A stretch of 37,212 nt of DNA, from the NCBI GenBank assembly GCA_019745505.1, contig JAIETE010000177.1, positions 1 to 37,212 on the forward strand. Direction: 5' to 3'. Origin of the DNA: Candidatus Obscuribacterales bacterium. GTDB taxonomy: Bacteria > Cyanobacteriota > Vampirovibrionia > Obscuribacterales > Obscuribacteraceae. The notes under the pieces were generated by a model. The model saw only the letters and a list, made by a program, of their open reading frames with translations. It was not told the DNA's origin and did not search any database. The position numbers and the translations under genes were made by a program. Positions 21,772-23,712 of the stretch are shown here, one piece after another. Within the stretch, counting starts at the first letter, position 1. Each line of letters starts with the position of its first letter.

Positions 21772-23712
21772 ATGGCTATCTCAGAAGAATCGATCAAATT
21801 GCTGGTCGAACTGGCAAACGCCAAGTTCCAAGATCCACACCGCACGCAAGAGGACCTGCTGCAGGCAAGAGCGCTCTTTCAAGAAGCGCTGGAAGGCTCG
21901 CTGGAAATCTACGGAACCGACAGCGAGTATTCAGGCATGATCTACAACTCGCTCGGATTGGTCTTCTGCCAGCTCGAAGACGACTACTTCGAAGAAGGAG
22001 AAGAAGCGTTCGCTGCCGCCCAGAGCGCTTACAAAACGCCTGAGTATCTGGCCATCGTACTCAACAATCACGCCGACTTGCTGCTCAAGGAAGCGCGCCT
22101 GATCGACGAAGAAATCGAAGAGATCAAAGAACTGGTGCGCAAGCAGCGGGAGGCACCGCCGCGTCCGTTACTCCCGACTCGCCGAGAACGGCTCGGCAAG
22201 GCAATCCGGCAGGCGGCTGGCAATATCCGTCGAGCCTGGAATAAAGACCAGACAGTAGAAGCGCAGGGGCGTCCGCGCGACATCACCAGCGAGCTGACTG
22301 CAACCATGCAGGAGGCGACGGACACTTACCGCAGAGCCGCGGAACTTCAGCGCCGAGCGCTTCAGCTCAAGCAGAAGGAAAACGACTCGGCAAGCTCGAC
22401 TCCGGAGATCGGTTCCAGTTCGGGTCCGGGCACTCGCTCGGGGTCGAGCTCGAATGCCGGCTCAGGTTCCCGCGCAAACTCCGGAGCGGGGGATGCGAAT
22501 GCAAACGGCCCGGTGAAGATGTCCAGCTCTCGTTCAGTGGCGCTGTACAACGGTCCGAAATATGGCGGGCAGGCCCCAAGCAATAACAAGAACGGCTATT
22601 TGCCGGAATACAAGACGCCGGCGCAAATCTTCGCGGCACTCGAGGAAGTGGCGATCGGACAGTATGCCGCCAAACGTGGTTTGGCAAATGCCGCTTCGCA
22701 GCACATGAAGCGCATGAGGCTCACGCCGGAAGAGCGTGCAATCACGGACAAATCGAATGTTCTTTTGGTTGGTCCGACAGGCTGCGGCAAGACGCTGCTC
22801 GCCGAGGCGCTGGCGAAAGTCATCAGCGTGCCCTTCTATCGCACGGAGGCGACGAAACTGACGGCGTCCGGCTATGTCGGTGAAGACGTGCAGTCTTCTC
22901 TGACAGGATTGCTGCGTGTGTGCAACTTCGACGTGGAGCGCGCGCAAACAGGCATCATCTTCATCGACGAGATCGACAAGAAAGCACGCCATTCCGGCAG
23001 TCAACTCGATGTCGGCGGCAAGAGCGTCCAGGAGGAGATGCTGACGATTTTGGAAGGAACCAAAATCAGCGTGCCGGGCAAGAACAAAGGCGAAACCATC
23101 GAAATCGACACGACGAATATCCTCTTTGTGGTCGGCGGAGCCTTTGTCGGACTGGGAGAAATTGCCCAGGAACGACTCTCGTCCAACGGTGCTACGATTG
23201 GCTTCTCAGCCAATCTGCGCAACAAAGAAGAAGATCCCAATTCGTACTTGAAGCACCTGACCGCTGCCGACTTCGTCAAGTTCGGGCTGATCCCGGAATT
23301 GATCGGGCGCTTACCCAATCGTCTCTACATAGAGACATTGACGGTCGAGCAGTTGGAGCGGATTCTCACGGAGCCGAAGAAGGCGATTCTGCTGCAGAAG
23401 CGAATTCTCATGGCGGGAGTGACCGACATCAAGTTCACGAGAAGCGCTGTCAGGGCGATGGCGAGCGAGGCTCACAAAATCGGCACTAATGGTCGCGCTC
23501 TCAGGGAAATCGTCGAACAAATCATGGAGCCGGTCGTGTTCGCCGAGCCGAGGGAAATTGTCATCACGCAAGAGATGGTGCGCAACCGGCGCAAGGAAAT
23601 CGCCGCTGCCAACGAAGAAAGCGCCAACGTGAAGCCGCGTCTAATGCCGGATTACGTCGTTGATGACGAACCGGTGGCGCTGCTCTTCGAAGCGCAGACA
23701 AACGCTCATTAG
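21772..23712 (+). CDS. ClpX-like AAA+ unfoldase with TPR-like N-domain
   Basis: This is a 646-aa ATPase, against about 420 aa for housekeeping ClpX. Residues 1-125 look like TPR helices (SEYSGMIYNSLGLVF), then a helical stretch and a Ser/Gly-rich linker (about 208-250). No C4 zinc-binding domain is present. The AAA+ core has Walker A GPTGCGKT (334-341), pore loop GYVG (367-370), Walker B IFIDEID (396-402), the ClpP-docking IGF motif (476-478), the FGLIPELIGRLP arginine-finger segment and a sensor-2 region. The RKH loop that grips ssrA in ClpX appears shortened to VPGKNKGETIEIDT. This suggests ClpP binding but different substrate choice. GGAGA lies six bases before the ATG. Confidence 0.9.
   Translation: MAISEESIKLLVELANAKFQDPHRTQEDLLQARALFQEALEGSLEIYGTDSEYSGMIYNSLGLVFCQLEDDYFEEGEEAFAAAQSAYKTPEYLAIVLNNHADLLLKEARLIDEEIEEIKELVRKQREAPPRPLLPTRRERLGKAIRQAAGNIRRAWNKDQTVEAQGRPRDITSELTATMQEATDTYRRAAELQRRALQLKQKENDSASSTPEIGSSSGPGTRSGSSSNAGSGSRANSGAGDANANGPVKMSSSRSVALYNGPKYGGQAPSNNKNGYLPEYKTPAQIFAALEEVAIGQYAAKRGLANAASQHMKRMRLTPEERAITDKSNVLLVGPTGCGKTLLAEALAKVISVPFYRTEATKLTASGYVGEDVQSSLTGLLRVCNFDVERAQTGIIFIDEIDKKARHSGSQLDVGGKSVQEEMLTILEGTKISVPGKNKGETIEIDTTNILFVVGGAFVGLGEIAQERLSSNGATIGFSANLRNKEEDPNSYLKHLTAADFVKFGLIPELIGRLPNRLYIETLTVEQLERILTEPKKAILLQKRILMAGVTDIKFTRSAVRAMASEAHKIGTNGRALREIVEQIMEPVVFAEPREIVITQEMVRNRRKEIAAANEESANVKPRLMPDYVVDDEPVALLFEAQTNAH

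Follow-up and report, generated by a model that had tools for sequence, protein, structure and literature searches.

The window analysed in this study, a 37,212-nt stretch of DNA from a Candidatus Obscuribacterales bacterium (contig JAIETE010000177.1 of assembly GCA_019745505.1), carries a gene for a ClpX-like protein with an N-terminal tetratricopeptide repeat (TPR)-type domain, here called TPR-ClpX. TPR-ClpX is probably a second ClpX-derived AAA+ hexameric unfoldase that recruits substrates via its TPR domain and feeds a ClpP; we put the probability of this reading at about 0.58. Judged from its sequence, the protein has intact ATPase and pore-1 motifs and the IGF tripeptide, the zinc domain and the RKH motif of canonical ClpX are missing, the pore-2 loop is shortened, and a canonical clpX is present elsewhere in the genome. 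We infer that TPR-ClpX would form a hexamer, dock on ClpP, and recognize a partner or degron through its TPR groove.

Motor and N-terminal domain of TPR-ClpX

Two ClpX models were by far the top NCBIfam matches of TPR-ClpX, one covering residues 277–617 (3.8e-100; 335.7 bits against a curated cut-off of 359) and the other residues 279–608 (4.6e-89; 299.3 bits against 370.75). Pfam AAA_2 matched at 3.2e-25. When solved relatives were ranked by sequence, the best 15 were all ClpX chains, followed by HslU, and PADLOC gave weak AAA+ matches only (best, 38.6 bits to IetA). Among the features by which ClpX membership was judged, Walker A and B, the GYVG pore-1 loop, and IGF were found in TPR-ClpX; the Cys4 zinc domain, the RKH motif, and a score reaching either NCBIfam cut-off were not. 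The ClpX-like core described in a preliminary description of this gene was thus confirmed, with its Walker motifs, GYVG, and IGF at the positions given in Table 1. Arg513 and Arg575 are taken by us to occupy the arginine-finger and sensor-2 positions, respectively.

The same description held that the zinc domain is replaced by a TPR-like and helical region plus a Ser/Gly linker, and the further analysis agrees. Pfam TPR_12 scored 31.8 bits on residues 1–207 scanned alone, above the cut-off of 30.1, and 25.9 bits (1.2e-05), below it, in the full-length scan. In the AlphaFold 2 (AF2) model, which predicts a TPR fold and a flexible linker, the helices of the TPR-type domain span residues 5–19, 26–47, 52–67, 73–86, and 90–127, and the predicted fold aligns with the kinesin-light-chain and LGN TPR domains in the PDB. 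No TPR paralogue of this domain was found elsewhere in the window's genome at E ≤ 0.01. Across the clade of TPR-ClpX proteins defined below, TPR_12 gave matches at E ≤ 0.01 in 22/33 members, most aligned relatives have a shorter Ser/Gly linker than the window protein, and mean pairwise identity (calculated without the fragments P0013 and P0018) was 39% in the TPR domain versus 67% in the motor.

No zinc-type CxxC was present in the first 90 residues of the window protein or of any of the 34 clade members, although the absence carries little weight for P0013 and P0018, which are N-truncated. The zinc family PF06689 was neither among the precomputed domains of P0002–P0034 nor among the 25 shown of the 39 families matched by 33 clade members. 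Likewise, R[KR]H was not found in the loop of the window protein, and the RKH motif was found in 0/34 clade members. In contrast, all 42 canonical loci from relatives up to class level, a count that includes some genes fetched twice, have two CxxC and RKH. This comparison was restricted to open reading frames with GPTGxGKT, which left out a second ClpX of genome G021 that has neither CxxC nor RKH. A cryptic zinc domain or an intact RKH loop, named in the preliminary description as evidence that would overturn its view, was therefore looked for and not seen in the clade. [IM]GF and GY[VI]G were each conserved in 34/34 members.

The claim that the RKH loop itself is lost stood only in part. As measured by motif spacing, the loop is 20 residues long in most canonical rows and 19 residues in 19/34 clade members, 17 in six, and 15 in nine (P0001–P0009, the subgroup of the window protein). 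The motif is missing, but on these spacings the loop is shortened rather than wholly gone across the clade, and a single Lys or Arg is retained at column 437 in 30/33 members. Compared with 112 canonical cores, the clade is fixed at ≥90% to a different state in 14 columns, two of which are gaps. These diagnostic columns include the pore-2 loop deletion, a gap where canonical ClpX has the His of RKH, and a Glu-to-Ala change two residues before the first Gly of GYVG, with Ala in the window protein. At the IGF position, the 33 members have Ile (32) or Met (1), Gly (33), and Phe (33), and most surrounding columns are variable.

Two other divergent ClpX relatives were observed. A protein of G050 in the same class (L051:165-3878 on G050:C30; 1238 amino acids) has three tandem ClpX-like AAA+ domains and matches neither RKH nor [ILMV]GF. 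IGF can therefore be lost in ClpX relatives; this protein could be a covalently linked half-ring working without ClpP. The second ClpX of G021 (contig C40, L047:6718-7956, minus strand; ca. 400 amino acids) is very divergent, has IGF, lacks the zinc domain, TPR, and RKH, and its place in the quick tree described below is unsure.

Table 1 Features of the TPR-ClpX gene and associated elements in the window.
Feature	Position	Strand	Remarks
Divergent ClpP-like gene, 192 amino acids	10039..10617	-	Ser/His/Asp aligned with solved ClpP
Shine-Dalgarno-like GGAG	21762..21765	+	Spacer of 6 nt to ATG; read from sequence
TPR-ClpX gene, 646 amino acids	21772..23712	+	ATG 21772, stop 23710-23712; one uninterrupted open reading frame
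TPR-type domain, residues 1-127	21772..22152	+	Pfam TPR_12; AF2 pLDDT mostly >90; TPR folds in PDB
Variable segment and final long helix, residues 128-206	22153..22389	+	
Ser/Gly-rich linker, residues 207-279	22390..22608	+	pLDDT <50 over 209-274
Large AAA+ domain, residues 280-515	22609..23316	+	Boundary placed by eye on alignment
Walker A GPTGCGKT, 334-341	22771..22794	+	
Pore-1 loop GYVG, 367-370	22870..22881	+	
Walker B IIFIDEIDK, 395-403	22954..22980	+	DEIDK = 399-403
Shortened pore-2 loop region, 404-420	22981..23031	+	Leu where canonical ClpX has Arg before Asp-Val
Loop ISVPGKNKGETIEI, 432-445	23065..23106	+	At the place of the RKH loop
IGF tripeptide, 476-478	23197..23205	+	ClpP-docking role from PMC7112951
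Arg513 in LIPELIGRLP	23308..23310	+	Invariant in 12/12 and 33/33
Small AAA+ domain, residues 516-616	23317..23619	+	Includes Arg575 in GTNGRALRE
Terminator-like hairpin, 12 pairs	23769..23795	+	Starts 56 bases past the stop

Distribution, phylogeny, and ClpP paralogues

Searching with residues 1–300 of TPR-ClpX retrieved eight proteins (7995 candidates scored), and a search with the core retrieved 33 proteins at ≥430 bits with a clear score gap beneath. The 34 clade members examined are mostly unnamed database proteins, some of whose records had already been automatically named ClpX or AAA family ATPase. Five of the 50 genomes of the family carry TPR-ClpX, and the same five are the only carriers among the 240 genomes sampled in the class, so that the gene was found in one family only. 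The copy in G064 is a C-terminal fragment whose N-terminal domain is unseen. A two-peptide-pattern scan of a species-genome collection, which may omit records close to the window's own genome, gave three loci, titled Candidatus Obscuribacter sp., Cyanobacteria bacterium SZAS LIN-3, and REEB67. Obscuribacter belongs to the Candidatus Obscuribacterales of Melainabacteria, the non-photosynthetic kin of cyanobacteria. The search across genomes for the TPR plus ClpX arrangement, as suggested in the preliminary description, has yielded a separate clade.

A carefully built tree of 38 rows gave the TPR-ClpX clade full support and placed it on a long stem. The rows comprised 16 of 33 clade members and 11 of 28 plus 11 of 13 canonical proteins, without the second ClpX of G021, the G050 domains, P0035, and P0036. 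A quick tree of 78 rows, which omitted P0002, 11 repeat canonical loci, and three identical ones and included 13 other database ClpX, also recovered the clade. The canonical ClpX rows of the group stood together without TPR-ClpX in 82% of 200 bootstrap trees, in which no root was inferred. TPR-ClpX was therefore not seen to branch from among the canonical ClpX of its own group, and a recent duplication is unlikely. A mobile-element or phage origin was also considered; the two-peptide-pattern scan confirmed no relative in viral contigs, and the PADLOC matches were weak.

The window is contig C35 of genome G000 (6.73 Mb in 340 contigs, 84% complete, 5.01% contamination). The sole other ClpX found in this genome is a canonical one of 432 amino acids on G000:C1, directly after a clpP, with the zinc Cys pairs and RKH. 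TPR-ClpX is therefore a paralogue and not the housekeeping ClpX; the opposite finding would have spoken against the preliminary description. The matched cores of the two proteins are 46% identical, with intact motifs in both.

CLP_protease family matches occur at five places in the window's genome, namely the clpP beside clpX, one ClpR-like gene, and three divergent genes, one of which lies inside the window, 11 kb from the TPR-ClpX gene. In the ClpR-like paralogue (L011:1411-2055 on G000:C2), the catalytic Ser and His are replaced by Ala and Arg, as judged by eye. The top NCBIfam match of the ClpP-like protein in the window was to phage head-maturation ClpP relatives, below the cut-off, and the gene was matched in 19/50 family genomes at E ≤ 1e-22. 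It is a possible partner of TPR-ClpX. An initial association (5/5 carriers versus 14/45 other genomes) suggested a dedicated partner and did not hold: two of the five carrier matches score better with another ClpP paralogue, which leaves 3/5 versus 9/45 (p = 0.08). The other divergent ClpP class alone gave 4/5 versus 17/45 (p = 0.09), and either class gave 5/5 versus 22/45 (p = 0.04, uncorrected); these three tests overlap, and the ClpP classes were set by hand from scores. Large genome size alone, with a limit of ≥5.9 Mb chosen by us, gave 4/5 versus 19/45 (p = 0.13). In genus g13, both carriers have a divergent ClpP and none of the four non-carriers does, a pattern that may be one event. The third ClpP paralogue scores >270 bits in 45/50 family genomes and is therefore uninformative on partnership. 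As a partner for TPR-ClpX, the product of the canonical clpP would be the simplest assumption.

Proposed function and alternatives

In the mechanism that we propose, a hexamer would hold six TPR heads on flexible linkers over the pore. The heads would act as a built-in adaptor that binds clients or degrons and hands them to the pore, where the pore-1 loops would pull the client while the IGF loops dock on a ClpP. The ClpP-docking role of IGF is as given in PMC7112951. Proteins tagged by ssrA and clients of zinc-domain adaptors would stay with canonical ClpX. The preliminary description had likewise supposed that other substrates, selected by the TPR region, are delivered to a ClpP, and the conservation of IGF favours this. 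A narrower version, in which TPR-ClpX is a self-adapted ClpXP that abandoned the zinc-adaptor and RKH/ssrA routes, fused its own TPR adaptor, and became a dedicated tag-independent degradation machine of Obscuribacterales, possibly with a divergent ClpP, for instance that encoded at a distance of 11 kb, seems to us tentative, with the odds slightly against it.

Several observations weigh against the proposed function. The gene is carried by few genomes of the family (5/50), although many of these 50 are incomplete; the window's genome is itself 84% complete with 5% contamination, and three carriers are metagenome-assembled genomes by record title. TPR_12 gave no match at E ≤ 0.01 in 11/33 members (two clade members are N-truncated), and the fast divergence of the TPR domain fits diverse clients but would also fit loose constraint. 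One member has MGF instead of IGF. No clpP or adaptor gene is operon-linked to the TPR-ClpX gene, which co-occurs only weakly with divergent ClpP paralogues. Three neighbouring genes were looked for on the contigs that carry three orthologues; two were unmatched there, and the third, a gene of the SDR family, matched one contig.

The unlinked clpP and the MGF member would also suit a ClpP-independent remodelling chaperone, which would unfold partners held by the TPR domain or take them apart but not have them degraded, with IGF as a leftover or of minor use. The AAA+ clade of the TPR-bearing EccA is proposed to serve assembly rather than degradation (PMC10659427). Against this, IGF was kept in 32/33 members (Gly and Phe in 33/33) after a very long stem, in contrast to the G050 tandem protein, which also lacks RKH and has no [ILMV]GF match; we consider the chaperone role unlikely. 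Another role for the TPR domain would be to place or regulate the motor, as a tether to a partner, membrane site, or chaperone or by tuning of assembly, while the altered pore loops read the substrates. Binding of partner peptides is common for TPR domains, the linkers differ greatly in length among members, and the TPR domain changes rapidly, all of which suit such a role. The joint loss of the zinc domain, RKH, and pore-2 loop length fits altered substrate entry instead, and we judge placement rather improbable. Mixed rings with canonical ClpX, in which TPR-ClpX would be a modified subunit and not a separate machine, are conceivable given cores that are 46% identical with intact motifs; the diagnostic differences are spread over the core (14 columns), and we judge this explanation very improbable.

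The usual picture of ClpX is of a single, conserved housekeeping unfoldase, with separate adaptor proteins extending its choice of substrates. If TPR-ClpX works as a second unfoldase feeding a ClpP, the clade would show a motor re-aimed by a fused recognition domain, with the adaptor domain and the tag motif lost and IGF kept. The clade would then serve as a natural experiment on the functions that require the RKH loop and the pore-2 loop, and as a model on which a ClpXP with a binding domain of choice could be built.

Gene neighbourhood and known systems

For the two small proteins encoded just upstream of the TPR-ClpX gene, tblastn against the contigs that carry three orthologues gave no match at E ≤ 1, and the remaining neighbours were compared by eye only. 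The SDR gene beside TPR-ClpX (23989-25005, minus strand) has a 77% identical counterpart near the G019 orthologue (L045 4884-5711), where it stands in another arrangement. The orthologues of G032 (L044 5475-7149) and G011 (L046 5907-7605), which are of one genus, have two neighbours in common, one resembling a phosphoesterase gene and the other a methyltransferase gene, as judged by eye. A histone-deacetylase-family protein is encoded at 17613-18560 (plus strand) of the window. Terminator-like hairpins numbered seven in the 2.7 kb scanned versus 3.8 expected by shuffling.

Canonical ClpX shares with TPR-ClpX the AAA+ core, the Walker motifs, GYVG, and IGF, and its core (for example, in the Neisseria, E. 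coli, and Mycobacterium structures) is 37–44% identical among the 50 structural matches listed. TPR-ClpX differs from it in having no zinc domain, no RKH, a shorter pore-2 loop, and the TPR domain and linker in front. The model of HslU, a related AAA+ unfoldase, scored 158.1 bits on TPR-ClpX against a cut-off of 362.45, with the match in three pieces; TPR-ClpX has IGF, and no I-domain, a feature of HslU, was seen in it. The TPR domains of kinesin light chain and BtubC share the predicted fold of the N-terminal domain, and the likeness is limited to the fold.

In EccA, a type VII secretion chaperone, as in TPR-ClpX, an AAA+ motor follows a TPR domain (PMC10659427). However, the EccA motor is of the CbbX clade, a different family, and the EccA model scored 20.1 bits on TPR-ClpX against a cut-off of 466.65. 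No description of TPR-ClpX by title or abstract was found in the open-access literature searched, a scope outside which most subscription journals fall. By description, ClpX3 of Myxococcus xanthus is the nearest precedent. M. xanthus has three ClpX, the extra copies of which are reported to be isolated and deletable, and ClpX3 is an extra ClpX apart from clpP that, by the published account, has neither the N-domain nor RKH; the sections of PMC11423568 available, on which this comparison is based, mention no TPR domain in ClpX3.
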